From Bacteroidales bacterium (GTDB taxonomy: Bacteria; Bacteroidota; Bacteroidia; Bacteroidales; Muribaculaceae), in NCBI GenBank assembly GCA_910575545.1, contig CAJTFH010000014.1, forward strand, positions 1-64,000: a DNA stretch of 64,000 bases, written 5' to 3'. Under the pieces are notes generated by a model, which saw only the letters and a program-made list of their open reading frames with translations, did not search any database and had not been told where the DNA came from. This document shows, one piece after another, positions 18,808 through 61,833 of the stretch (its first letter is position 1; every line of letters begins with the position of its first letter). The translations under genes and the position numbers were made by a program.

Positions 18808-18841
18808 AAAACCGCCCACAACTATCTGTAGGCGGTTTTTT
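18808..18841 (+). terminator. Intrinsic terminator after the surface protein gene
   Basis: AAAACCGCC pairs with GGCGGTTTT around a 14-base loop, and six T bases follow. It lies 8 bases after the stop and separates this unit from the CHASE2 cluster. Confidence 0.85.
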
Positions 18842-18858
18842 AATTACAACACATTACT

Positions 18859-18867
18859 CCCCCCCCC
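18859..18867. repeat. C9 homopolymer upstream of the CHASE2-caspase cluster
   Basis: Nine C bases lie about 64 bases upstream of the -7 word. A similar run stands by the promoter of the second caspase operon at 61931-61939. Such tracts can change length by slippage. Confidence 0.7.
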
Positions 18868-18930
18868 ATCATACTTGTTAAATCCGCACCACTTCAACAA
18901 AATATATTTTCATTTGTCACAAAAATCACT

Positions 18931-18938
18931 TATCTTTG
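18931..18938 (+). promoter_or_regulatory. -7 promoter word for the CHASE2-caspase cluster
   Basis: TATCTTTG is a full match to TAnnTTTG. A TTTG at 18913-18916 is only 14 bases away, shorter than the usual 17-23. The leader to the ATG would be about 40 bases. Confidence 0.55.
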
Positions 18939-18984
18939 CATATCATTTGAAAAGACACCTGTGAAAGCACCTGTGAAAGCATCC

Positions 18985-20157
18985 ATGAAAACACTCAAGC
19001 ATATGGCACCCAAACTCTTGAAGGCTTTGGGAATCACAATTCTTGCGTTCATACTTTCCACGGTGCTAATGCGGCCGTTTTCATTTTCAGCATCGGCTTT
19101 CCTATCAAATCCCGAAAAGAGCGACTTTGCAATCACCGACTTCTATAGCATCGTTGCCGACTCCCGTCCGGTGCGCACAATCGACGACGACATAGTTGTC
19201 ATAAACCTCAACGGCCTCGACCGGGAAGGTATAGCACAGGTGCTTGAACTGATGCCGCTGCTCTCTCCGGCCGCCGTAGGCCTCGATGTGGCGTTTGTCG
19301 AGCCGCGCGACAACGATTCCCGTCTGCTTGCTGCAATAGCCGGTTGCCCCAACCTCGTGATGCCAGTAGCGCTAAACCAAAACAGCGGCAATGGGAAATT
19401 CTCTTTAGGGGAGATTTCATTTTTCGCCGATTCAACAGCACGCCACGTCCCGCTCGGAGCCACCAACCTCCCCGCCCGCTACGCAAAAAGCACAATCCGC
19501 GAGTTCCGCACATTCTTCCCAATCAACCATAGCATCGTCAACTACACCGACTCTATCCCGTCGTTTGTAGTAGCCGTTGCACAAACCGCCCGCCCTTCCC
19601 TCGCCGAAGTTCTGGCCAGACGCGGCAACACCCTGGAGATGATTAACTACCCTTCGCGCAGCTTCCGCATCTTCAACCCCGAGGAAATTGTCGGCAACGC
19701 CCATCTGATGGCCGGGAAGATACTGCTTCTGGGCGACACCGACGACCTTGCCGACATGCATGCAACCCCGGTCACCTCAACCATGTCCGGAGTCATGATT
19801 CATGCCCATGCCCTCTCCACCATTATACATAATGGGTATCTCGACTCATTCACCAAAGCCCAAAACCTAACTTTAGCATTCGCATTATGCCTCATCATCG
19901 TGCTCACAAGCGTGATGCTCCCCATAGGTATCAAAGGGCTGATAATGCGTATAACGCAGGTGGCCCTCCTCTACTTCGTAGTACGCCTTGGCTACTCGCT
20001 ATTTCTCGACCACAACATGGTAATCGACTTTTCATATGCCTTGCTGATGCTCGCCTTCGGGTTATTTGCTTGCGACATATGGATAGGTCTGACGAACATA
20101 TGGCTGGGTCTGCGCAGACGTTACCGCAAATTGGTTGCGGCACGCGCACAACTCTGA
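18985..20157 (+). CDS. CHASE2-domain membrane sensor lacking an output domain
   Basis: A 390-residue inner-membrane protein. One N-terminal helix (about 13-34) leads to an extracytoplasmic CHASE2 domain (about 40-275) with the family's VVINLNGLDREGIAQVLELM and AAVGLDVAFVEPRDND segments and a GKILLLGDTDDLADMH core. Three membrane helices follow and then a 20-residue basic tail. CHASE2 domains usually carry a cyclase, kinase or phosphatase on the cytoplasmic side; none is present here, so signalling must go through a partner. The start is ATG 18985; GTG 18961 is possible in the same frame. It is the first of seven plus-strand genes. Confidence 0.85.
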   Translation: MKTLKHMAPKLLKALGITILAFILSTVLMRPFSFSASAFLSNPEKSDFAITDFYSIVADSRPVRTIDDDIVVINLNGLDREGIAQVLELMPLLSPAAVGLDVAFVEPRDNDSRLLAAIAGCPNLVMPVALNQNSGNGKFSLGEISFFADSTARHVPLGATNLPARYAKSTIREFRTFFPINHSIVNYTDSIPSFVVAVAQTARPSLAEVLARRGNTLEMINYPSRSFRIFNPEEIVGNAHLMAGKILLLGDTDDLADMHATPVTSTMSGVMIHAHALSTIIHNGYLDSFTKAQNLTLAFALCLIIVLTSVMLPIGIKGLIMRITQVALLYFVVRLGYSLFLDHNMVIDFSYALLMLAFGLFACDIWIGLTNIWLGLRRRYRKLVAARAQL

Positions 20158-20214
20158 AACCTCTACATCAAACATCAAACCAAATCTTTAACCCCGCCCG
20201 TTAATCCAATCATT

Positions 20215-21060
20215 ATGAAAAAATTGCTACTCGTTTCCATCATATCGGCACTGGGATCATTGGTTGCAGTCGCACAATATTCCATACACTCCCTTTCAGG
20301 CGATGTAAAGCTGAAAAAAGGTATGCAGTTTGTGCCCGTAGCCAAAGGCACGTCCCTGACGGCCGCCGACGTGCTCGAACTCGGAGAAGGGGCATCAATA
20401 GAAATTTTCAACACCACAAACTCTCAGACCTACAAATGCGTCAAACCCGGCCTGTCGAGTGTGTCAGGCATAATAATCAGCGCAACCTCCTTGGCCTCAA
20501 ACAAAGGGAAAAGCATCCGCGACAACATGAATTTCTCACGCTCATCAGCATCAGGAACCGGCCATGTCTACGTTGAATCAGGCATGGTGAAACGCACCAT
20601 GGCCACCTACGACCCCGAAGCACGTAACATCGAAGTCGACCCACGTGAGCTGTCGCGTTTCGTTGTCAACGCATTGCGTAACCCCGATGCAGTGAAGGAT
20701 ACTGAATGTCCGGCTGCTTTCACCCACACACCAAACCCACACGGAGGCCTCAGCTTCTCAATCGGCAACACCCTCTCATCACCGATTTATTTCAACGTAA
20801 TCAAAGTGGCTGATAACGCCATATCGAAAGTCTGCATTTCCGAACTCGGCCAGCCCTCCGGCAGCTACGTTCTCCTCCCTGCCCAGACAATATCGCGCGA
20901 GCACCTGTCGCCCATGGCCGCTAACGAGCGCCATATCCTCATAATGACACATTTCAACTTCGATGTCGACAAACTGATCGAGCAAATCGAAACCACCGTT
21001 CAGTCTGGTGACAATTCAATCCCCGACAGCTCTCTCAACGTTTATTTCTCCATCCTTTAA
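20215..21060 (+). CDS. Secreted FecR-like protein
   Basis: A 281-residue exported protein with signal peptide MKKLLLVSIISALGSLVAVAQ. Residues 22-110 have the FecR/iron-dicitrate-regulator beta pattern: SLSGDVKLKKG, then VAKGTSLTAADVLELGEGASIEI. There is no membrane helix and no DNA- or sigma-binding part, so it is not a classical anti-sigma factor. The second half (FSIGNTLSSPIYFNVIKV, then YVLLPAQTISREHLSPM) looks like a beta-sandwich I cannot name. It lies 57 bases after the CHASE2 gene; pairing with CHASE2 suggests a periplasmic accessory role, which is inference. Confidence 0.68.
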   Translation: MKKLLLVSIISALGSLVAVAQYSIHSLSGDVKLKKGMQFVPVAKGTSLTAADVLELGEGASIEIFNTTNSQTYKCVKPGLSSVSGIIISATSLASNKGKSIRDNMNFSRSSASGTGHVYVESGMVKRTMATYDPEARNIEVDPRELSRFVVNALRNPDAVKDTECPAAFTHTPNPHGGLSFSIGNTLSSPIYFNVIKVADNAISKVCISELGQPSGSYVLLPAQTISREHLSPMAANERHILIMTHFNFDVDKLIEQIETTVQSGDNSIPDSSLNVYFSIL

Positions 21061-21184
21061 AAACCACTGATGTACCGGCTTCCCTTAAAGACCTTTGCGA
21101 CCTTAAAGCCCTTGGTGGCCTCCTCCCTCTTTTGAATTCAACCTGCCCCCAATAAGCCTTTTATAAACCATTCATATCTATTTT

Positions 21185-23257
21185 ATGCACTTTAATTCTT
21201 TTTGCAAACAGAGCTTAATGGCAATCGCCGTTCTGGCCTTATGCTATTCAACCGCAGACGCACAACGCACTGATTACCACTACAAACGCACTAACACACC
21301 TGAAGGCATCGCTACCAAAGACATGATTATCTACGACTGGGCCGGCGATGGCGTGCAGACCCTGCGCGGCGAACATATGCTGAATCTCGGCAAAGCAATC
21401 CGCAAAGTCAAAATAAATCCTACCGGAACCAGTCTCATCGTCCTCGCCGATGAAAAGAAAGCCCCAGTGCTCGCGGTTTTCGCCACTGACGCAGTCAACC
21501 ACCAACTCCACAAATTCAATAACAAAAAAGAAGGCATCCCCTCTGCCATGGCCTACACCGCAGATGCCCGCCGGTTGGTCGTTACTTCCGGCAACAATGC
21601 CAACGTCTACGACCCCCGTGCCTTCGTACGCCTCGACCAGTTCGAGCTCCCATACACCCCCACAGAAATAACCATAAGCTCAAACGGCTATTTCCTGGCA
21701 ATCACCGACGGCCACAATGTCAATGTGTTCAACTTTGAAGGGCGCAACCAACGCAAAGCATGGAACTTCGACGCCAATGTGACCGACATGGCTTTCTCAG
21801 CTGATAACGACGAATTCGCCATACTCACCGACGACGGAGTTGTCAACATCTACGACACCCGCAGCTTCCTCACCAAAAAAGCTATCGACGACGCCGGCCA
21901 GGGTCTTTCAATGGCATATAACTTCGACGGAAAATATCTGGCAGTGGCAACATCGCCCGAAGTTGTCACAATCTACAACCTCCTCGACAACGAAGACCGC
22001 GACACTTTCGCCGTAGAAAACGGTGGCATGAGCCAACTGGCTTTCATCTCAGACATCCACTACAACACACTGTTGGCCTACAACACCCAAAACGCAGTAC
22101 ACGTTAAACGAATGACAAAACTCGCCCCATACTACGGCAAACTTATCAACGAGCAACTAAACGAGCGCATGGACGAATGGATGAAGATGCTCCCCGGCGA
22201 AACTCTCGAACAATACCAGACCCGTGTCAACGACACCACCCGCGACGCCCAGCGTAAACTCTTCGAAGCCGAAATTTCAACATCATTCGCCAACGACCTG
22301 GTAAACATGGCAACCGTGTCGCTCGGCAACTACGACCGCTCCAACGGAGTGCTCGCCGTAGCATTCGACAACATGCCGACCATCTTCCTAAACGTGCCCG
22401 AAACAGACCTGACATCATTCAACAATGCCGACGACCTCCAGTTCAAAAACGCCAAATACGGTGTGATGCCAAACGACCACTTCGAGATGATATATGCCGA
22501 AGTCCACAATAACGCCGACGGCAAAACATACATCTTCAGCAATCTCGACCGCGTCAACCTCAACTATATGACATCCGACGACAATGTAGTTTCGCTCGAC
22601 ATCATCCAGCAGCAGAAGATGGAAGAACTCCGCCTGCAGGAACTCCGCGAAAAAATCATAGCCGAGGCAAAAAGCAGCAACGTTATATCAGACCATACTA
22701 ACATCACAGTCGACTCACGCGTAGTGCCCGATTATGATGCCGACGGCAACAAAATCCTAAACTACCTTGTGAGCTTCACCTACCAGGTCGAACCTGAATT
22801 CTCAGCCGTTGAAGACTTCGCCCCCGGAAAATACCGCATCTCTGAATCAGGCGCCGCAAGTGCCATGCTGAAAATCGTGAAAGAAGCCTTTGAAGGCGAC
22901 TTCGCCCAATATTTCAAACCCGGCAAAAAACTGCTTGTGAAACTCTCCGGAACCGCCGACGCAACACCAATCCACCGTGGAATAGCCTACGATGGTGTTT
23001 ACGGCGAATTTGAAAACGAACCGGTTTACCAGAACGGACGCCTTACCGGCATGACCGTCACCAGCAAAGACGGCATCAAGGAAAACGAACAGCTCGCTTT
23101 CATACGTGCATGTGCCGTTAAAGACTTCCTATCCAACAATGTGACCAACATCAACGACATGAACACCGAGTATTCCCACCATGTGGCTGTCAGCGAAGAC
23201 AAAGGAAGCGAATTCCGCCGCATCACGGCTGAATTCACCTTCGTTGACGCCTTCTAA
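21185..23257 (+). CDS. Periplasmic beta-propeller (WD40-like) with OmpA-like C-terminus
   Basis: A 690-residue exported protein. After a signal peptide (1-27) come WD40-like strands at about 60-330, each with hydrophobic beta pairs and an NVYD, NVFNF, NIYDTR or TIYNL blade end. Residues about 335-480 form a helical-beta module (EQYQTRVNDTTRDAQ, then IFLNVPETDL) that recurs in the next protein. The C-terminal 140 residues resemble a divergent OmpA domain: KKLLVKLSGTADATP, NEQLAFIRACAVKDFL and FRRITAEFTFVD keep the Asp, Asn and Arg positions used for peptidoglycan contact. It may tether the assembly to the wall. The exact function is unknown. Confidence 0.75.
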   Translation: MHFNSFCKQSLMAIAVLALCYSTADAQRTDYHYKRTNTPEGIATKDMIIYDWAGDGVQTLRGEHMLNLGKAIRKVKINPTGTSLIVLADEKKAPVLAVFATDAVNHQLHKFNNKKEGIPSAMAYTADARRLVVTSGNNANVYDPRAFVRLDQFELPYTPTEITISSNGYFLAITDGHNVNVFNFEGRNQRKAWNFDANVTDMAFSADNDEFAILTDDGVVNIYDTRSFLTKKAIDDAGQGLSMAYNFDGKYLAVATSPEVVTIYNLLDNEDRDTFAVENGGMSQLAFISDIHYNTLLAYNTQNAVHVKRMTKLAPYYGKLINEQLNERMDEWMKMLPGETLEQYQTRVNDTTRDAQRKLFEAEISTSFANDLVNMATVSLGNYDRSNGVLAVAFDNMPTIFLNVPETDLTSFNNADDLQFKNAKYGVMPNDHFEMIYAEVHNNADGKTYIFSNLDRVNLNYMTSDDNVVSLDIIQQQKMEELRLQELREKIIAEAKSSNVISDHTNITVDSRVVPDYDADGNKILNYLVSFTYQVEPEFSAVEDFAPGKYRISESGAASAMLKIVKEAFEGDFAQYFKPGKKLLVKLSGTADATPIHRGIAYDGVYGEFENEPVYQNGRLTGMTVTSKDGIKENEQLAFIRACAVKDFLSNNVTNINDMNTEYSHHVAVSEDKGSEFRRITAEFTFVDAF

Positions 23258-23258
23258 C

Positions 23259-23287
23259 AGATTGTCTGAAACTGCTTTAGACAATCT
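23259..23287 (+). other. Intra-operon hairpin between propeller and caspase genes
   Basis: AGATTGTCT and AGACAATCT form a perfect 9-bp stem with an 11-base loop, 2 bases after the propeller stop. The tail TTTAACC is a weak T run, so it may attenuate transcription or stabilise the upstream mRNA. Confidence 0.5.
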
Positions 23288-23320
23288 TTAACCCCAAACA
23301 TGAGGTATACAACATCAGAT

Positions 23321-25990
23321 ATGAAACGAAACATAAAAACACTGCTTCTACTCTCATTCGCAACTGCAGCTTCGCTCTGCAGCATAAACCTTTTAGCTGA
23401 CGACGACATCTCCATGCCCGGCATGGAGATGCCTCTCGGCATTCCATCGCTGACACCTGTCAATGCAGCCTCGACAGACTCTCTGACTGCCACAGAAGAA
23501 AACACCGACAGCCTTATGGCTGTGCGACGCCAGCAAGCATTCGACCTGGCTGCTACCGATTATGAGAATGTAACACGTCTGCGGTCTCAAGGCGAACCGG
23601 AAGAAAGCTATTTTCCCGAAGTATACCGCTGCTTCAACCTTAGCGTCGAAGCCCTCAAACTCATCGAACCGGGGCAACCTGAATATGCTCGGCTTAAAGG
23701 GATTCTGCGTGACATCCACCGCTATCTCGAAGAGGGAGCCTTCTATTATTCCGGCAAAAACAACTCGGCCGGAATGGTGAAATTCGCACGCGCTTTCGTT
23801 GATATAAAAACCATGGATGAATTCGCCGACGACAACCTGCAGGTCAATGCCAACTACTATCCGTCGTTGGTTTATTGTGCAGCTTCCGGCGCATATAACG
23901 AAAAAGACTACGACGGGGCAATCAGATATTTCAAGGAATATTTCGCCACCGGCGACCCCCGCTACCGCGAACAGATCCACATCTTCATGGGACAGGCCTG
24001 CCTGAACTCCCAGAACTATAACCTCGCGGTCACAACCCTGAACGAGGGGGTCAAACAATTCCCCCAGAACTTCTCCATGCTCCAACTCGCCATACAGGCT
24101 TGTATCGACGGCGGCATGGCAGAATACATGCAAGACTTCCTCGACAAAGCCATCGCTCTGCGGCCCAACGACGAAACCCTTCTCAACATCCAGGGGAAAC
24201 TATATGAAGACCGGGGCGAATACCAGAAGGCCCTCGACCTGTTCAGCCGTCTCGACATGCTCCACCCCAACAACCTGTCCGTGACCAAACACATCGCCCT
24301 GTGCTACTACAACATAGCCTCAAACTACTCGAACATGGCCGTCGGCGAAACCGACGAGAAAACCGAGAAGAAATACCGCCGACAGGCAAAAAATTATTTC
24401 TCCGACGCTGTGATGAAACTATCACAGGTCACAGCCTCAGACCCCACTGCGGTGAAATACCTGAAAGCATTGGCCGTAAGCCACCTATTCCTCGACAACA
24501 AAGACATGTTCAAAGAGGTGAACACCCGTCTGCAGGCACTCGGCGAAGACCCTCTCGACGAAATGTATATGCCCCCTACTGTCAGCTACAACGAAAAAGG
24601 CAACCGCAACTATGAAATGGCAGGAAACTCGGTGCTTGCAACCGAAGACACCCCGTCATATTCCCAGTTCGCCAAACCGTTTATAGAAGACAACCTCGCG
24701 AAATGGACCCGTCGCGGAGAATTTGAAAAACTCTCCGACTACCAGGTGCGCGTCAACGACCAGACTATCCAGGCCGAATATGAGCGTCTGAGCCAACAGG
24801 CACAGAAAGACTACCTCGACCTGTTCAGCCACAAACTACGCATCAACGACCTGCGTCTGCAGCCTTATGATGCCAACAACGAAGTCTACAAAATCGAATC
24901 GGCCTACGGCCCGATTCTTCTCAATGTGCCGCTGAAAAACAATGAGGCAGAACTATTCCGCGCCAACTGGAACAACGTGCGCTTCAAAGCCCCGCGCTAC
25001 TACATCAAAAACGACAAGGTGCAGCTCTCGTCAATCACATTCGTGACACCGGCAAACAAAACCTACACCTACAACGTCAACGACGAGATAACCTACGCCA
25101 ACACACGCGTGGACATCGACTTTGAAGCCATACTCCGAAAAGCCAACGCCGACATGGCCGGCAACTCCGCGCCAACCGATGGAGGAAAAGTGCGCATAAC
25201 CCTGAAATCCGATGTCGACACCGACATTCCGGAAACCAACAAACGTGCGCCCAACACAGTGGCCGTAATCATCGCCAACGAAGATTATGCCAATGTGTCG
25301 CAAGTTAAATCGGCGCTCAACGATGGTGAAGCATTCCGCCTGTATTGCACCAGGACACTCGGCATTCCCGAGCAGAACGTCAGGTTCTACAGCAACGCCA
25401 CCCTCGGTTCGATGCTACGCTCGATTGCCGACCTGCGCCACACCGTCGACGCTCTCGGACCCGACTCAGACGTAATTTTTTACTACGCCGGACATGGTAT
25501 GCCAGATGAAAGCACCCACGACGCCTTCCTGCTTCCGGTCGATGCCGACGGCATGATCACCGAAAGCTGCTATCCCCTCAGCAGACTCTACAAAGAGCTC
25601 GCCGACCTGAAAGCATCTTCCGTGATGGTGTTCCTCGACGCATGTTTCAGCGGTGCACAACGCGACGGAGGCATGCTTATGGCCGCCCGTGGCGTGGCCA
25701 TCAAGCCGAAAACCACCGCACCGGCAGGCAACATGTTCGTGCTCAGCGCGGCTTCCGACAAAGAGACTGCGCTCCCGTATGCAGAGAAGAACCACGGCAT
25801 GTTCACCTACTTCCTGCTCAAAAAGCTCCAGGAAACAAAAGGAAACGCCACTCTGAAGGAAATCAGCGATTACGTAATCGACAAGGTAAAAGTGCAGTCT
25901 AACCTCGTGAACAAAAAGCCGCAGACACCGTCTGTGACAACATCTGGAACCATGACCCGCAACTATACCAAAAAGAAACTACGTCCCTGA
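23321..25990 (+). CDS. Secreted TPR protein with C-terminal caspase-family peptidase
   Basis: An 889-residue exported protein, start ATG 23321 (MKRNIKTLLLLSFATAAS); the in-frame ATG at 23300 adds 7 residues. TPR-like helices span about 55-410. Residues about 455-610 repeat the module of the propeller protein (DYQVRVNDQTIQAEYERL, then ILLNVPLKNNEAELF). A caspase/peptidase C14 domain fills about 640-880, with VAVIIANEDYANV, the catalytic His725 in YYAGHGMPD and Cys775 in FLDACFSGAQ, so it should be active. Caspase-like peptidases cut after basic or acidic residues; specificity is unknown. Its export means it acts outside the cytoplasm, unlike bacterial caspases of abortive infection. Confidence 0.87.
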   Translation: MKRNIKTLLLLSFATAASLCSINLLADDDISMPGMEMPLGIPSLTPVNAASTDSLTATEENTDSLMAVRRQQAFDLAATDYENVTRLRSQGEPEESYFPEVYRCFNLSVEALKLIEPGQPEYARLKGILRDIHRYLEEGAFYYSGKNNSAGMVKFARAFVDIKTMDEFADDNLQVNANYYPSLVYCAASGAYNEKDYDGAIRYFKEYFATGDPRYREQIHIFMGQACLNSQNYNLAVTTLNEGVKQFPQNFSMLQLAIQACIDGGMAEYMQDFLDKAIALRPNDETLLNIQGKLYEDRGEYQKALDLFSRLDMLHPNNLSVTKHIALCYYNIASNYSNMAVGETDEKTEKKYRRQAKNYFSDAVMKLSQVTASDPTAVKYLKALAVSHLFLDNKDMFKEVNTRLQALGEDPLDEMYMPPTVSYNEKGNRNYEMAGNSVLATEDTPSYSQFAKPFIEDNLAKWTRRGEFEKLSDYQVRVNDQTIQAEYERLSQQAQKDYLDLFSHKLRINDLRLQPYDANNEVYKIESAYGPILLNVPLKNNEAELFRANWNNVRFKAPRYYIKNDKVQLSSITFVTPANKTYTYNVNDEITYANTRVDIDFEAILRKANADMAGNSAPTDGGKVRITLKSDVDTDIPETNKRAPNTVAVIIANEDYANVSQVKSALNDGEAFRLYCTRTLGIPEQNVRFYSNATLGSMLRSIADLRHTVDALGPDSDVIFYYAGHGMPDESTHDAFLLPVDADGMITESCYPLSRLYKELADLKASSVMVFLDACFSGAQRDGGMLMAARGVAIKPKTTAPAGNMFVLSAASDKETALPYAEKNHGMFTYFLLKKLQETKGNATLKEISDYVIDKVKVQSNLVNKKPQTPSVTTSGTMTRNYTKKKLRP

Positions 25991-26022
25991 CAAAACATCC
26001 ACCTACAAGAAACATAGAAAAG

Positions 26023-26895
26023 ATGAAACTGAGGAAAATGATACTGGCCCTGGCAATCACGCTCACCCCTTTCAGCGGCTTCGCCCTGAAAGAGATGAGC
26101 GTCAATGGGGAATACACCTTCTATGGCGACGGATCCCATTCACGCGACGAATGTAAACGTCTCGCCCTTGAAGGAGCTCGTATTGAAGCCCTGAAATCTG
26201 CATTCGGCACAATCGTCTCTCAAGACATAGTGCAACACGACATGGTTAACGATGGCGGAGAATCAACCTATTTCTCTGCAATGAGCGCAACAGAAGTAAA
26301 AGGCGAATGGATTGCCGACGACGGAGAGCCACAGTTCACCTACTCTGTCGACAACGACGGCAACCTCGTTGTGAAATGCTCAATCAAAGGCCGCGCCAGG
26401 GAACTCTCAAACGAATCAACCGATTTCCAGACTCTAGTGCTGCGCAACGGCAATGAAGCCCGCTTCGCCGACACTACATTTGCCAACGGCGACGATCTGA
26501 AACTGCTGGTAAAAGCTCCCGTCGACGGATTCCTGGCAGTTTTCCTTGTGGGAGAAGACCGGCAGACATATGCGCTCCTCCCCTACCTCAACGACCCCGA
26601 CGGTGAGGTGAAAATCAAACGCGGAAAAGAATACGTGTTTTTCGACACCGAAAAAGCCGACAGCAAACACGGCCCGGTCGACCAGCTCGTTTTAACATCG
26701 GAATCGCCAAGTGAATATAACCGAATCTACGTGGTGTTCTCACCCAACAAATTCTCACGGGCCGTCGACACCTACACCGACGAGCTTACACCTCGATCCC
26801 TCAGCTTCGACAGCTTCAACCGTTGGCTGGCGAAATGCCGGAAAATAGACCCCAAAATGGGAGTGAAAATCATCAACCTCCAGATTAAAGGATGA
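26023..26895 (+). CDS. Secreted DUF4384-domain protein
   Basis: A 290-residue exported protein. The signal peptide precedes an N-terminal alpha/beta region (CKRLALEGARIEALKSAFG) that recalls LPP20/FlgO-type envelope proteins. Residues about 150-240 fit DUF4384 (LKLLVKAPVDGFLAVFLVG, then YALLPYLNDPDG), a beta domain frequently found together with caspase domains in bacteria. It starts 32 bases after the caspase gene. Its role as a ligand-binding or substrate partner of the caspase is inference. Start could also be ATG 26038. Confidence 0.75.
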   Translation: MKLRKMILALAITLTPFSGFALKEMSVNGEYTFYGDGSHSRDECKRLALEGARIEALKSAFGTIVSQDIVQHDMVNDGGESTYFSAMSATEVKGEWIADDGEPQFTYSVDNDGNLVVKCSIKGRARELSNESTDFQTLVLRNGNEARFADTTFANGDDLKLLVKAPVDGFLAVFLVGEDRQTYALLPYLNDPDGEVKIKRGKEYVFFDTEKADSKHGPVDQLVLTSESPSEYNRIYVVFSPNKFSRAVDTYTDELTPRSLSFDSFNRWLAKCRKIDPKMGVKIINLQIKG

Positions 26896-26997
26896 CAACC
26901 AGCCCACCCGGCTCCGGTCTGTCATACATCTCTGACCCATCCACACCCCTCTCCGCCTAACCCTGATTTCATTAACCCCAAATTAAATCATATGATT

Positions 26998-27636
26998 ATG
27001 AAAAAACTGATTATGCTAATCATGGCATGTGTGCTTATGGCGCCCGCCATCAACGCCAAAAACGACGTCAACAAAGAATTGCAGAAAGCCATCAAGAAAG
27101 AGAAAAAAGAAAAAATGAAAGAATACAAAAAAGAGGGCTGGAAGCTCTTCGGCTCCTCTCGTTCTCTTGAAGTGGCTCTGCTCACACACTACGACAAACT
27201 GGAAAAACTCGGCGAAGACGGCCGCGAAGTTGCCGGTGTAGCTTCTAAATTCAAATCGAAAAGCATCGGCCACCAGATGGCCATCAACGACGCCTGCCTC
27301 ACATACTCACAGCAGGCCGGAAGCTCTCTCAAAGGCCGGGTAATCTCCGACATGTCTGGCGACGGAACAGATGCCGTGGCTGAATTCGACCACTTCTTTG
27401 CAGCCTACGAGCGCCTCGTAGAGAAAGAAATCAAAGGCGAAATGGAAGAATCATACTCCATAATACGCGATAAAGGCGACGGTACATCTGAGATGCAGAC
27501 ATTCTTCATCGTCAGCGAAAGCGCCGCATCGAAAGCACGCATACGCGCCCTTGAAGACGCAATGAAAGAAAGTGAAGCAGCCCAGCGCCATGCCGATAAA
27601 ATCGCCTCTTTCGTGCGCGACGGCTTCGCCGAATAA
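26998..27636 (+). CDS. Small secreted helical protein, function unknown
   Basis: I do not recognise this family with certainty. It has 212 residues from ATG 26998 (ATG 26992 is equally close), a signal peptide ending near INAK, and a very Lys/Glu-rich stretch (LQKAIKKEKKEKMKEYKKEG) likely to form a helix. The rest is alpha/beta, with YSIIRDKGDGTSEMQTFFIV resembling the envelope LPP20-like fold. It stands 102 bases after the DUF4384 gene on the same strand and belongs to the caspase cluster by position. Confidence 0.6.
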   Translation: MKKLIMLIMACVLMAPAINAKNDVNKELQKAIKKEKKEKMKEYKKEGWKLFGSSRSLEVALLTHYDKLEKLGEDGREVAGVASKFKSKSIGHQMAINDACLTYSQQAGSSLKGRVISDMSGDGTDAVAEFDHFFAAYERLVEKEIKGEMEESYSIIRDKGDGTSEMQTFFIVSESAASKARIRALEDAMKESEAAQRHADKIASFVRDGFAE

Positions 27637-27689
27637 CTCCCCGACACCCTCTAAGACTTATAAATACTCCAGGTGGTTCTCCTCTCTTC

Positions 27690-27735
27690 TTTTCTCATTA
27701 CTTCTTACTTCTTATTTCTCGCTTCTCACTTCTCT
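27690..27735. repeat. Simple pyrimidine repeat (ACTTCTT words) before the transglutaminase-like gene
   Basis: The run is made of ACTTCTTACTTCTTATTTCTC-like words. The same words recur at 42420-42460 and 48216-48295. It lies directly upstream of the start at 27749. Confidence 0.6.
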
Positions 27736-27748
27736 TCCACCGAATAAC

Positions 27749-29284
27749 ATGAAAATCTCAGGTCGATTTTTAGCTGCAGCAATCCTCATAGCGGCCATAT
27801 GCCCTTCAACCGAAGCTCAATCAGAGTCCTTCGCAGACTTTCGCAATAAGGTGTTGAATGAATTCAACGAATTCCGCTCCTCTATTCTGGAAAACTACGA
27901 TAAATTCCTTGAAGGAGCATGGAAAGACTACGACCAGATTAAAGGGGTAAAGAGTAACCCTGTGCCAAAACCACGCACCGCCCCAACTGTCAGCAACCCC
28001 GATGCACCTGTAACCAAGACCTCACCGGCAGTGTCAACTCCGGTGGCCTCAAAGCCGCAGGCAAACGTCTACCCCAACAAAACAAAGACACCGGAATCAC
28101 AGACACAGGCGCAACCTGACAATTACACACAAAAAACACCGGTAGCCAAACCTACTACAGCTGCAGATGACCTGCCTGCATCCGCCAACGGAACCGACCG
28201 TTTCAACATGGCGGGCATACAACTTGAAGTTCCTCACATCGAATATAATATTTCCCGCCGACTGGCCAATACCCACGAATTCGGAGCCCATTGGCGCGGA
28301 CTCGCAAAAACATCATTGGCCTCACAGTTGATACCAGAATTCCGCAACCTGGCTGAAAAACACGGATTCAACGACTATCTGACATTCATGGCTGTCAATG
28401 CCTATGTCGACAACCGTTTCCCCCAGGCCCACTCGTCAAGCCGGAAATCACTGGTGCACTTCCTGATGGCGAATATGGGCTATGATGTACGACTCGGAAC
28501 AAACCAGACCGGCACCGCCATGCTTCTAATCCCATTCAACCAGATGGTTTTCGCACATCCCTACCTGAATATCAACGGCAAAAAATATTTCATTTTCGCC
28601 GATGAAAACGTCGACCTTACCAAACCCGACAACCTTCGGATAAGCACATGCGCCCTCCCCTCAGATGCCGATGCAGGAAAGCCTCTCGACCTTCTGCTGA
28701 AGGAATTACGCCTCCCGGAAAAGCCCTACCGCTATAACATCTCTTTCGGAAACATAACCTTGACAGGAGAACTCAACCAGGCCGTAATGCCTTTGCTCTA
28801 CCGCTATCCGCAAATGCCAACAGCCGATTTTGCCAAATCTGCAATCCTGCCCGACGTGCGCCGCCAGATTGTCAGCCAACTCAAAACCCAACTGTCGGGA
28901 ATGGAAGAAAAGACAGCCGTAAACACCCTGTTACAGTTCGTCCAAAAAGGCTTTGAATATTCAACCGATGAAGACTTCCACGGTTTTGAGAAGCCATATT
29001 TCCTCGAGGAAACCCTGTTCTACCCCAAAAACGACTGCGAGGACCGTGCAATTTTCTACACCTACCTGCTGTGGGAAGTGCTTGGCATACCAAACCAGCT
29101 CATATGCTATCCTGGCCACGAAAGCGCCTCAGTATCACTCTCCACACCCGTCAAAGGCATATCATATTCACATTCCGGAAAAACATTCTACATCTCTGAT
29201 CCGACCTACATAGGCTCTGTAACCGGCCAATGTATGCCCGACTTCGAGCAGACCGCCCCCGAAATCGACTTCACCTACAAATAA
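27749..29284 (+). CDS. Secreted transglutaminase-like (papain-fold) protein
   Basis: A 511-residue exported protein; ATG 27749 starts a clean signal peptide (MKISGRFLAAAILIAAICPS), while the longer ORF from 27572 reads through an intergenic repeat. A Pro/Thr/Lys-rich linker (about 65-145) follows a short helical segment. The C-terminal part has a transglutaminase-like triad: Cys430 in NDCEDRAIFY, His457 in YPGHESA and Asp484 in ISDPTYIG, evenly spaced. It could be a peptidase or amidase rather than a crosslinker. It is the last gene of the cluster, before a strong hairpin. A second thiol enzyme in a caspase cluster is notable. Confidence 0.78.
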   Translation: MKISGRFLAAAILIAAICPSTEAQSESFADFRNKVLNEFNEFRSSILENYDKFLEGAWKDYDQIKGVKSNPVPKPRTAPTVSNPDAPVTKTSPAVSTPVASKPQANVYPNKTKTPESQTQAQPDNYTQKTPVAKPTTAADDLPASANGTDRFNMAGIQLEVPHIEYNISRRLANTHEFGAHWRGLAKTSLASQLIPEFRNLAEKHGFNDYLTFMAVNAYVDNRFPQAHSSSRKSLVHFLMANMGYDVRLGTNQTGTAMLLIPFNQMVFAHPYLNINGKKYFIFADENVDLTKPDNLRISTCALPSDADAGKPLDLLLKELRLPEKPYRYNISFGNITLTGELNQAVMPLLYRYPQMPTADFAKSAILPDVRRQIVSQLKTQLSGMEEKTAVNTLLQFVQKGFEYSTDEDFHGFEKPYFLEETLFYPKNDCEDRAIFYTYLLWEVLGIPNQLICYPGHESASVSLSTPVKGISYSHSGKTFYISDPTYIGSVTGQCMPDFEQTAPEIDFTYK

Positions 29285-29312
29285 TCCGTTAGGATACATA
29301 ACCCCGCTAAAA

Positions 29313-29361
29313 CGGCCAACAAAATTAATCTACGCATAATACTGGTTAATTTTGTTGGCCG
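29313..29361. terminator. 16-bp perfect hairpin between convergent genes
   Basis: CGGCCAACAAAATTAA and its exact complement TTAATTTTGTTGGCCG enclose a 17-base loop. It ends the caspase cluster on the plus strand and cinA on the minus strand, where TTTT follows. Each arm contains a TAATTTTG word, probably by coincidence. Confidence 0.8.
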
Positions 29362-30711: not shown

Positions 30712-31563
30712 TTAATTTCCATCAAGCGGTTTCTGCTTTTTGAGAAGGCGTCTTTGCTTGCTCTCCAACCGCTTGATGCTTTCCGGAGTAGGCAAATCCT
30801 CTGGCATTGTTCCACCAAGTTCTGCGATAGTTTCTCTTACTTTCCTGCCTACATCAAAGTGAGTCCGATTTGCATTCGCTTTCCCCTTGATACCCTCGCG
30901 CCTGAGTTTATCCTCGGTCTGAGTAGCCCGGAAGAGATTTGCGGCAAGTTCCGTACTCCCCATATGGTCGAGTATCTCCTGATTTTTTGTCAATCCCTTG
31001 CGGTCATGGATGTCTTCCCGGTCAAGTCCTCCATACAGCCCTTTATAACCGGCATTTTGAAAAATCCCGTAATCTTTGTTTGTCACAACGCCGGCTTCCT
31101 TGGCTGCACTTGCAAGACGCTGGTTGTGCTTTTTCATTTCTCCACGAAGCATCAGGCGTTTTTCATCCTCTTCTGTAAACGGCGAATCAAGATATTTTTC
31201 CGCTCTGCGAACCTGAACAGCGAAATACGTCTGAGCTTGAGCTACAATTGTTTTGGATGGATTTGCGTTCTGCACGGCAAGATAACACGCATACCGCGAC
31301 ATTCTGACTGTATCTACCTGTCTTTCAGAGTTAGAACCAATGGGAACCATTTCGTTGTAAACAACAAAATGGTCTTTTGGATTTATGCCGCTGTTTCTAC
31401 ATGCCTCCCATGCCTTGTTGCCTACCTCTTTGAAATAGCGATAATCAGTGTAGCCCAACACCCGCGCCAAATCTCTCGACGACCACCATTCCTGTCCATT
31501 TTCATCAATCCGTTTGATTTTTTCGAATGTTTCCTTCGCTTTCTTTGTCAGTCTGGTACTCAT
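30712..31563 (-). CDS. dinD: DNA-damage-inducible protein D homologue
   Basis: A 283-residue protein with a Bro-N-like N-terminal half (WWSSRDLARVLGYTDYRYF, then VRMSRYACYLAVQNANPSK) and the DinD-specific C-terminal half (YKGLYGGLDREDIHDRKGL, LDHMGSTELAANLFRATQT). In E. coli DinD is SOS-induced and inhibits RecA filament growth. It starts 15 bases after the tsaD stop and is followed by cinA, so it is inserted inside a housekeeping unit. AT-rich codons suggest acquisition. No LexA-type operator is recognised upstream. Confidence 0.88.
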   Translation of the reverse strand: MSTRLTKKAKETFEKIKRIDENGQEWWSSRDLARVLGYTDYRYFKEVGNKAWEACRNSGINPKDHFVVYNEMVPIGSNSERQVDTVRMSRYACYLAVQNANPSKTIVAQAQTYFAVQVRRAEKYLDSPFTEEDEKRLMLRGEMKKHNQRLASAAKEAGVVTNKDYGIFQNAGYKGLYGGLDREDIHDRKGLTKNQEILDHMGSTELAANLFRATQTEDKLRREGIKGKANANRTHFDVGRKVRETIAELGGTMPEDLPTPESIKRLESKQRRLLKKQKPLDGN

Positions 31564-45569: not shown

Positions 45570-45619
45570 TTAAAAAACCGTTTAAATTTGATTAAAATTC
45601 AAACAGTTTCTAAGCATAA

Positions 45620-45691
45620 TAACGAATAAGGCTGTCTCACGACAGCCTTATCCTTTTATCTTTAACCTTAAATCTAATACCATGAAAAAAC
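45620..45691 (-). ncRNA. Candidate small RNA antisense to the apbE downstream region
   Basis: A minus-strand TATATTTG (45705-45698) would start an RNA near 45691. It would contain the A/U-rich segment with CATGGTATTAGATTTAAGG and end after a strong hairpin at 45651-45626 (ATAAGGCTGTC-gtga-GACAGCCTTAT). The size would be about 70 bases. The same hairpin can terminate apbE on the plus strand. I have an unverified memory of similar segments in other Bacteroidales. Nothing here shows it is transcribed. Confidence 0.4.
45626..45651. terminator. Terminator after apbE
   Basis: ATAAGGCTGTC and GACAGCCTTAT form an 11-bp perfect stem with a 4-base loop, followed on the plus strand by CCTTTT. Confidence 0.75.
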
Positions 45692-45697
45692 ACAGTG

Positions 45698-59807: not shown

Positions 59808-61229
59808 TCATTTCAGTTTCATCGACTCCCACTGGTCTGACAGCTGCAACGACGCGCTGACCGCCGGCAGCTGGATCTTCCTGTTCACGACCACAGACTG
59901 CTGTGCCACATTCGTCGATAAATGTTCATAGAGGTCGCCCAATGTCACATCACCCTTAGTTTCCTGAAGTTTCTCAAGCAGATAATAGGTGAATATCCCG
60001 TGACCTTTCTCCTTATACGGATAAGCCGTCTGGTCACCAGACGCCGCCGAGAATACAACCATATTACCCTTCGGGCGAACCGAAGCGCTTTTGATTTTAA
60101 CACCGCGCGCAGCCATCAGCATTCCTTCTCCGCGTTGAGAGCCACTGAAGCATGCATCAAGGAACACAACAACCGACCGCGCTCCAAGACCTCCCAGACG
60201 CTCGTAGAGTTTCGCCAGCGGGAAGCACACCTCGGTCATCGAGCCGTCTGCATCAACTGGCATCAGATAGGCAGACCGGTCACGCTCGTCAGGTATACCG
60301 TGGCCCGCATAATAAAACATGATGTCAACGTCACCGCCATATGCCTCCGTTATCGCCGTAATATCTTTCAGCGCTCCCAACATGTCGCCATATGTCGCAT
60401 TCTCATAACGCCGGATATTGCTCTCCGGAAGCCCCAACGTGCGGTGACAGTAATCCGCAAACACCCGGGCATCCTTTGCAGCGAACTCAACCCCGGCAAC
60501 TCCGTTGCGATAATCCTCATTGCCGATTATCACAGCAAAACGGTTACGGCTCTCCGTGGCCGACCTCGGTATGTTACGGTCAACTTCACACTCAGGCACC
60601 TCCTTGGCTTGCGGTTTCGTCCCGTCTGGTGCAGCAACCGGCGCCGAGCTTATTGCCGATGCTGCAGCCAGCAGCACCTCGTCGGGATTCGATGCTTCCA
60701 AAAACGGGATTTCAGCTGCAAACGGCACCTCGGGGCACTTCCTGAATGCCATGGTCAAGGCATACGCCGGATATTCAAGCCTGTTTCCCCTCACCTCGCG
60801 CAACTTAATACAACCCTTAAACGGCCCGTTCCCACCGAACCCATAATTCTCCACCGGAATATCAACCCTTGCCTGGTCAGGCAAAACAATACTCTCCAGG
60901 TTCTCACACCCCTCGAATGCATTCATCCCTATCCGCTTAACTGAATTCGGAAGCTTTACCGACTTCACATACTTTGCCCCTTTGAATCCGCGCCCTTCAA
61001 CCGACGTAACCGAATAAGGTAATCCGTCAATCAAGACCTGTTCCACAACCTCGAGTTCTGCCAGCCCCTTATCGCGAGAATCCGCAATGCAGCAGCTTAC
61101 TTCTGTATTTCCACGTGTGGTATATTTTACACCGTTTACAGTCACCGTTGCCCCATACACCGGAACAAGCATCACAGCGGCAAGCACCACCACAAATATC
61201 CGGTTTCTCATCTCTCTGAAAGTCTCCAT
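59808..61229 (-). CDS. Secreted BspA-type LRR protein with caspase-family peptidase
   Basis: About 473 residues from ATG 61229; ATG 61211 and 61253 are alternatives. The signal peptide is MRNRIFVVVLAAVMLVPVYG. Residues about 60-170 are LRR_5/BspA-like (VKSVKLPNSVKRIGMNAFEG, CENLESIVLP). A Pro/Ala linker leads to a caspase domain with His310 in YYAGHGIPD and Cys360 in FLDACFSGSQ, 50 residues apart as in the protein at 23321. The two caspase domains share many identities (AVIIxNEDY, LLPVDADG/LMPVDADG, GMLMAARGV). It sits in a three-gene minus operon. Confidence 0.85.
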   Translation of the reverse strand: METFREMRNRIFVVVLAAVMLVPVYGATVTVNGVKYTTRGNTEVSCCIADSRDKGLAELEVVEQVLIDGLPYSVTSVEGRGFKGAKYVKSVKLPNSVKRIGMNAFEGCENLESIVLPDQARVDIPVENYGFGGNGPFKGCIKLREVRGNRLEYPAYALTMAFRKCPEVPFAAEIPFLEASNPDEVLLAAASAISSAPVAAPDGTKPQAKEVPECEVDRNIPRSATESRNRFAVIIGNEDYRNGVAGVEFAAKDARVFADYCHRTLGLPESNIRRYENATYGDMLGALKDITAITEAYGGDVDIMFYYAGHGIPDERDRSAYLMPVDADGSMTEVCFPLAKLYERLGGLGARSVVVFLDACFSGSQRGEGMLMAARGVKIKSASVRPKGNMVVFSAASGDQTAYPYKEKGHGIFTYYLLEKLQETKGDVTLGDLYEHLSTNVAQQSVVVNRKIQLPAVSASLQLSDQWESMKLK

Positions 61230-61242
61230 TATTCCAGTCCTT

Positions 61243-61833
61243 TTAAAAATCAACTCCGATGCGCATCAAGAAGCCGAATGCATACTGCCTAACAAGAACC
61301 CGGCCATAATCATCTCTCCAACTGGAGTATGCCGATTTAATCCAATTACCAGTACCGGCCTCAACACGTCTAATTCTGACGCCGAGCGACACATTCAATC
61401 CTGTACGGCCTGTCAGATTGAATCGTACACCTCCGTTTATATTCCCATAAAAACCATTAGCCTTGGCAACCTGATAGCCGGCCCTCACATCAAAAAACGG
61501 AGTTATCTTTCTGCCGAAAAAATCCATACGCCACATGGCATACACCGGTATGCTACCCAGCTCTTCCCAATCTGAAATATCAAGTCGTCTACAGAATTCC
61601 GTCCCTATACCCACATAATGCTGCCTGCTCAACTGCACCCCATGCGTAGTTGACACCGCCATAGCAAATGCCACACCATCATACCCGTATGAGTCCATAG
61701 AGTTACCAGATGCATAAAACTCTTCCTGCAACTCCAATGCGGGAGCAACATCCACCATTCCCCTATAAGTCTGCGCCCTGCCGCTGACACATAACAGACT
61801 AATGCTAACAAGCAATAAACTCAACCTTTTCAT
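61243..61833 (-). CDS. Predicted outer-membrane beta-barrel protein
   Basis: A 196-residue protein with signal peptide MKRLSLLLVSISLLCVSGRAQ (start 61833; an ATG at 61848 is also in frame). Alternating aromatic strands such as GIGTEFCRRLDIS, IPVYAMWRMDFF and FFDVRAGYQVAK, and the C-terminal FGFLMRIGVDF ending in Phe, fit a small eight-stranded barrel. It is first in the LRR-caspase operon; the caspase start follows within 14 bases. Confidence 0.75.
   Translation of the reverse strand: MKRLSLLLVSISLLCVSGRAQTYRGMVDVAPALELQEEFYASGNSMDSYGYDGVAFAMAVSTTHGVQLSRQHYVGIGTEFCRRLDISDWEELGSIPVYAMWRMDFFGRKITPFFDVRAGYQVAKANGFYGNINGGVRFNLTGRTGLNVSLGVRIRRVEAGTGNWIKSAYSSWRDDYGRVLVRQYAFGFLMRIGVDF

Follow-up and report, generated by a model that had tools for sequence, protein, structure and literature searches.

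What could a caspase-like protease be doing in the envelope of a gut bacterium? Most work on bacterial caspase homologues has dealt with cell death and cytoplasmic defence. The question is raised by a block of seven genes in a 64,000-nucleotide stretch of a Bacteroidales genome (GenBank assembly GCA_910575545.1, contig CAJTFH010000014.1, positions 1 to 64,000 of the forward strand; hereafter the window), which joins an exported caspase to a CHASE2 membrane protein, a beta-propeller protein with a putative wall anchor and a LapG-like thiol enzyme. We tentatively propose, as a plausible though far from settled reading, that the products form a wall-anchored periplasmic complex of two proteases that, somewhat like the Lap system, would act on surface or outer-membrane proteins, with the CHASE2 protein as an optional input. 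With its exported, wall-anchored caspase and a LapG-like protease as partner, a conserved unit of this kind would bring the periplasm of gut bacteria within the reach of caspase biology. New here are the match of gene 7 to LapG together with its motif, the linker common to genes 3 and 4, the MotB/OmpA-like end of gene 3 and the CHASE2 protein devoid of an output domain. No published description of the seven-gene set was found in open PubMed Central full text (preprints and most subscription papers lie outside it), which agrees, within that literature, with an earlier annotation made from the DNA letters alone (the sequence-only reading) that knew of no such system.

All seven open reading frames (ORFs) were located on the plus strand at the positions given in that reading, and the locus is laid out as follows:

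18808..18839, plus strand: terminator-like hairpin that closes the upstream gene (13-nt arms 18808-18820/18827-18839, 92% complementary, then a T run)
18931..18938, plus strand: TATCTTTG, a -7-type word of the form TAnnTTTG
18961..20157, plus strand: gene 1, inner-membrane CHASE2 protein of 398 aa (GTG at 18961; ATG at 18985 is a possible alternative)
20215..21060, plus strand: gene 2, exported 281-aa protein
21185..23257, plus strand: gene 3, exported WD40-type propeller with a linker (about 305-470) and a MotB/OmpA-like end (about 475-690)
23259..23287, plus strand: A+T-rich hairpin between genes 3 and 4 (12-nt arms, 92% complementary, spacing 5 nt)
23300..25990, plus strand: gene 4, exported protein with TPR, a linker (about 450-620) and a caspase C14 domain (654-882)
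26023..26895, plus strand: gene 5, exported DUF4384-type protein
26992..27636, plus strand: gene 6, exported 214-aa protein
27749..29284, plus strand: gene 7, exported thiol protein of 511 aa with a transglutaminase (TG) fold (LapG-matched domain about 337-511)
29313..29361, no strand assigned: perfect 16-bp hairpin between gene 7 and a convergent gene (repeat 29313-29328/29346-29361)

Within this layout, the ATG at 23321 is a likelier start for gene 4 than that at 23300, and a longer frame of gene 7 from 27572 overlaps gene 6 while the ATG at 27749 opens a signal-peptide-like stretch. The view of one transcription-unit-like block, with hairpins at both boundaries and a single TAnnTTTG word at the front, is supported. 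This word, which we take to be a Bacteroidota-type -7 word, has no plus-strand counterpart in the non-coding DNA that precedes the seven genes; further plus-strand TAnnTTTG words lie inside gene 5 (26475) and in the end hairpin (29347). The promoter evidence is weak, however, because such words are common (46 on both strands of the window against a mean of 32.9 in shuffles) and no -33 TTTG was found at a spacing of 18-22 nt from the site at 18931. Generic scans returned 12 sigma-70 sites (8.4 +/- 3.1 in shuffles) and 22 terminators (14.7 +/- 4.1 in shuffles), none of which we used. By a crude hydropathy rule, hydrophobic N-termini are kept in 86% of gene 1 rows and in 92-99% of rows for genes 2-7, and the signal-peptide-like N-termini noticed earlier are supported. 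Inspection by eye showed no lipoprotein-type signal in genes 2-7, whose products are therefore probably soluble periplasmic proteins.

Gene 4 matches Pfam Peptidase_C14 (E = 2.2e-21, 77 bits against a cut-off of 21.4) and also TPR models; this domain behind a signal-peptide-like N-terminus supports the exported caspase seen in the sequence-only reading. The catalytic residues are kept in nearly all readable rows (H732 in 104/104, D780 in 104/104 and C782 in 103/104) of an alignment of 109 rows that includes paralogues outside the unit and in which 5 rows are cut before the domain. His732 and Cys782, numbered from the upstream ATG, are the residues first noted as His725 and Cys775, and the Cys430, His457 and Asp484 noted in gene 7 stand as they were. 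Counts obtained with regular expressions (106/113 caspases, 83/111 gene 7 proteins, 74/96 gene 3 proteins) are superseded by those from alignments, because the expressions were overly strict where rows were distant and scored cut rows as failures; four gene 4 rows of a third locus set were left out of the alignments. The locus sets partly overlap, and each distinct protein sequence entered the N-terminus and residue counts once. In gene 3 the Pfam matches are to beta-propeller families, and its C-terminal part combines a MotB/OmpA fold with the Asp and Arg ligands, so that the proposed OmpA-like wall anchor was recovered; Pfam OmpA stayed below its cut-off in the gene 3 family, where 3 of 15 members were matched (best E = 0.04). 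The proteins of genes 3 and 4 also share a linker domain (hhalign 1.4e-18). Elsewhere in the window, at 59808-61253 on the minus strand, matches to LRR_5 and Peptidase_C14 mark a further caspase that looks exported and carries BspA-type leucine-rich repeats; a close paralogue of it, 467 aa long, is encoded at about 48-49 kb of G000:C2 in this genome.

The closest solved structural match of gene 7 is LapG, a periplasmic protease that releases adhesins, and the match carries the transglutaminase fold. Its triad is kept in the readable members of 72 rows (Cys 69/69, His 68/68 and Asp 67/68, with one Glu), and DCED, present in 69/69 rows, corresponds to the Asp-Cys-Glu motif of LapG (calcium binding is predicted only). 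The fold, the LapG match and the conserved Cys-His-Asp support the transglutaminase-like thiol enzyme of the sequence-only reading. A sequence search against the PDB gave proline-rich chance matches only, and tandem TG folds are not claimed, since hhalign compared the N-lobe with the C-lobe at E = 0.014 and a probability of 3%. Outside the family many relatives of gene 7 lie in frames near 880 aa, where the enzyme probably carries an additional, fused domain. Among 40 neighbourhoods of gene 7 relatives, 20 each from the order and phylum searches, an LPP20-type protein has a homologue in 8; Pfam LPP20 recognised two of these proteins, one of them above the cut-off, and two of the loci also hold a protein of the PEGA/outer-membrane-barrel type. 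L276 and other such loci, in other families, are cases of gene 7 relatives beside LPP20-type and PEGA/outer-membrane-barrel proteins.

Gene 1 matches Pfam CHASE2 (E = 1.2e-20, 74.6 bits against a cut-off of 26.3) and has, by hydropathy only, four transmembrane-like segments and a tail of 27 aa. The tail is 42 aa or shorter in 32/32 relatives of at least 320 aa, short or split frames having been left out by this length limit, so that no cytoplasmic output domain was found in gene 1 or in any of the 32 as judged from tail length by hydropathy only. A signal received by CHASE2 must therefore pass within the envelope or via other partners. Gene 2 has a hydrophobic N-terminus, and neither the gene itself nor its relatives gave a Pfam match. 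The FecR-like label given to it earlier did not survive: Pfam FecR matched 0/14 relatives and was silent at gene 2 in scans of 12 genomes, and we reject this assignment. Genes 1 and 2 come and go together: among 60 loci that have over 3 kb of upstream sequence, 27 carry both and 33 carry neither. The CHASE2 protein is thus best described as an optional input, given its lack of a cytoplasmic output domain and its absence from those 33 loci. In one unit a gene whose product has an ATPase domain of the histidine-kinase type lies between genes 2 and 3 (L160:8319-9815), and a response-regulator-like gene was seen by eye upstream in Bacteroides timonensis (L174).

The DUF4384 model suggested for gene 5 scores 23.2 bits there, under the Pfam cut-off of 27, and gene 6 shows scattered weak Pfam matches among its 19 relatives. 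Pfam LPP20 matched neither gene. Against an LPP20-type profile the N-terminus of gene 5, which is partly signal peptide, reached 61% and gene 6 reached 17% or 2% in two alignments, compared with 31% for one control pair.

The grouping of these genes is not peculiar to one strain. A caspase query found matches in 25/41 genomes, the window's own included, and the five best loci (L031-L035) have the same neighbours, with all seven genes in four. Gene 3 occurs in 32/198 genomes of the window's family (probably Muribaculaceae), covering 15/30 genera; in the order it was found at E = 1e-60 in 7/393 genomes, three from the window's family and four from other families, and in the phylum 28/395 genomes besides the window's own match the propeller region only. 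A scan of named genomes confirmed 152 relatives, and the locus counts come from the best 80 among them, many loci ending at contig breaks. The strict order 1-2-3-4-5-6-7 is found in 22/80 loci, and in three more if a frame-split gene or an extra copy outside is allowed; other patterns include 3-4-5-6-7 (9 loci) and 6-3-4-5-7 (7 loci). Gene 4 follows gene 3 immediately in 75/78 loci with room for it, and where more than 7.5 kb lies downstream gene 5 is present in 58/61, gene 6 in 56/61 and gene 7 in 52/61 loci. Among cultured hosts, all seven genes occur in Barnesiella sp. WM24 (L111) and at least genes 3 and 4 in B. timonensis (L174). Because the genes just outside the unit are almost never homologous (2/171 and 2/253 pairs in sets of 19 and 23 loci), the edges of the unit coincide with the hairpins named in the sequence-only reading; the order is kept in other genera amid unrelated flanks, which supports conservation beyond the strain and argues that the cluster is more than chance. 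In 24 complete seven-gene sets, the window included and short or split frames left out by length limits, mean identity is 0.37-0.60 per gene and the distance matrices of the seven genes correlate at 0.77-0.96, so the genes appear to be inherited and to diverge together. A 675-aa gene that precedes gene 3 in one clade looks by eye like an alpha-amylase-type protein.

A tree of gene 3 (FastTree, 81 proteins), which is quick, midpoint-rooted and has several long branches, separates a clade of 16 rows from 65 rows that include all 34 CHASE2 carriers. CHASE2 was scored absent in 11 of the 16 and was not scorable in 5, and its state needs at least 6 changes on the tree. In the 16-row clade the extra genes after gene 4 are of the CarboxypepD_reg type (those of L158 and L172 judged by eye), with an outer-membrane barrel as well in L184 and L190; fimbrillin-like Mfa_like_1 genes lie after gene 4 and before gene 5 in L153, L158 and L172, and a fimbrillin-like gene follows gene 4 in L174, where gene 5 is outside the locus. 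Such inserts in a clade lacking CHASE2 suggest an outer-membrane target or partner and a later addition of the CHASE2 pair.

How might these parts work together? In the proposed complex, gene 1 would sit in the inner membrane with its CHASE2 sensor toward the periplasm, coupled to gene 2, while gene 3, which carries the propeller, would be fixed to peptidoglycan through its MotB/OmpA-like end. Gene 4, the presumed central protease, would use its repeats and the common linker domain to dock on gene 3, genes 5 and 6 may act as small periplasmic partners, and gene 7 would be a second periplasmic protease, a LapG-like Cys-His-Asp enzyme with an Asp-Cys-Glu calcium/nucleophile motif. Upon an envelope signal the caspase would cleave after basic residues, as expected from its kin and its Asp-x-Cys motif, and together with gene 7 it may trim, release or mature a protein of the outer membrane or surface. 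The LapG match of gene 7, along with the CarboxypepD_reg, barrel and fimbrillin-like genes beside the caspase in one clade, points no less strongly to the processing of surface or outer-membrane proteins than to stress sensing. A more elaborate version, which we regard as doubtful, is a two-step periplasmic cascade in which a CHASE2 receptor without output acts purely outward and switches on the caspase, held on the wall-anchored propeller that it meets through the common linker; the caspase would then activate, or cooperate with, the LapG-like protease to remodel the outer surface. If true, this would be envelope signalling of a new class and would parallel, outside the cytoplasm, the signalling of caspases on scaffolds.

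Several observations weigh against a two-protease complex with a CHASE2 input. Pfam gave gene 7 no credible match, no LapG-type model matched any of 22 members of its family at E = 0.1, and Transglut_core matched 4 of the 22 with a best value of 0.0029. Neither a LapD-type receptor nor a large adhesin is found among the seven genes, the rest of the genome not having been searched for them. Genes 1 and 2 are missing from more than half of the loci with upstream sequence (33/60), one unit encodes a caspase whose catalytic Cys is replaced by Ser (L109:6765-9410), and the fimbrillin cases, confined to four loci of one subclade, may be incidental. Relatives of gene 7 are also spread more widely than the unit (69/295 genomes in the order and 31/247 in the phylum, with the window's genome in both), and since a caspase-type gene 4 relative lies nearby on the same strand in 3/40 gene 7 loci (L284, L286 and L287), gene 7 need not act with the caspase. 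L295 has such a relative on the opposite strand, and L296, L312 and L313 have TPR-only matches. Given this wider occurrence, mostly apart from a caspase, gene 7 seems to be a reusable enzyme of the envelope, older than the seven-gene unit and recruited by it.

Other explanations share part of this evidence. In one, which we think unlikely, the caspase is an Arg/Lys-specific processor of fimbriae or outer-membrane assemblies, in the way that gingipain or clostripain processes type V pili, and CHASE2 is a late addition. The clade without CHASE2 fits this idea through its CarboxypepD_reg, barrel and Mfa_like_1 genes, as do the available portions of two reports, in which RgpA/B are required for Mfa1 polymerisation (PMC5954841) and a surface clostripain cuts type V pilins (PMC12632263). 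However, the latter already assigns pilin cleavage to clostripain, fimbrillin genes were seen in 4/80 loci (selected inserts scanned) and not in the window's unit, and gene 4, with its ordinary signal peptide, looks periplasmic rather than surface-exposed.

A housekeeping role in periplasmic quality control or peptide scavenging, running constitutively and free of signalling, is improbable in our judgement. It would suit soluble proteins with signal-peptide-like N-termini and intact catalytic residues in a unit that often lacks CHASE2, but scavenging would not need a scaffold-like propeller, TPR and a common linker, and a gene order that stays fixed around optional sensor genes points to a complex under regulation. 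Least probable of all, and very unlikely, is that the caspase is a periplasmic executioner released upon attack to damage the envelope. Its patchy presence in the family (32/198 genomes) at varying genomic places recalls conflict systems, which include caspase domains according to the part of PMC8195603 available. Yet none of the seven genes was recognised by Pfam as coding for an NTPase, pore-former, toxin or immunity protein, the PADLOC matches in these genes were a caspase model (1.8e-8) and a repeat model (1.2e-5) only, and a wall anchor with a LapG-like enzyme is ill-suited to a cytoplasmic death switch.

Two other features of the window were recorded. A BRO-N/DinD-type DNA-damage protein near the unit (30712-31563, minus strand) matches NCBIfam PRK11525 and PADLOC PDC-S13, and the Bacteroidetes sRNA FopS (Rfam RF04319) lies at 45617-45693 on the minus strand.

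Parts of the unit have counterparts in known systems. The available part of a 2012 survey of metacaspase operons describes C14 domains with WD40, TPR or OmpA, some behind signal-peptide-like N-termini, and counts OmpA in 14 caspase operons (PMC3501461); the seven-gene set itself does not appear in that part, though arrangements related to the seven-gene set may be counted there, undescribed. The Burkholderia BiofilmReg operon likewise places a CHASE2 membrane protein beside an exported FecR/LysM protein, but its CHASE2, in the part of the report available, is a domain of a histidine kinase that is accompanied by a response regulator, whereas gene 1 has no output and gene 2 no FecR match (PMC5192318). 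PorE (PG1058) of type IX secretion, as far as the accessible text describes it, is also an exported beta-propeller protein with an OmpA_C-like wall-binding end. It differs in its TPR and CRD, for which Pfam gave no match in gene 3, so that gene 3 lacks the PorE domain set and has instead the linker shared with gene 4; nor did Pfam recognise a secretion gene in the unit. Fragipain/clostripain and the gingipains, in the portions of text available, are exported Bacteroidales cysteine proteases that mature surface proteins, but they belong to other peptidase families and are surface-exposed. The gene 4 caspase is presumably their kin within clan CD, and we know of no scaffolded operon for any of them. 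Lap (LapG/LapD/LapA) and DvhG/DvhD share with the unit a periplasmic TG-fold Cys-His-Asp protease that bears an Asp-Cys-Glu motif, an inner-membrane receptor with a periplasmic part and a possible outer-membrane target. Unlike Lap, the seven genes hold no c-di-GMP receptor domain, adhesin or type 1 secretion gene and gene 7 goes unmatched by the Pfam family, while the unit adds to the Lap theme a caspase, a propeller and a putative wall anchor.

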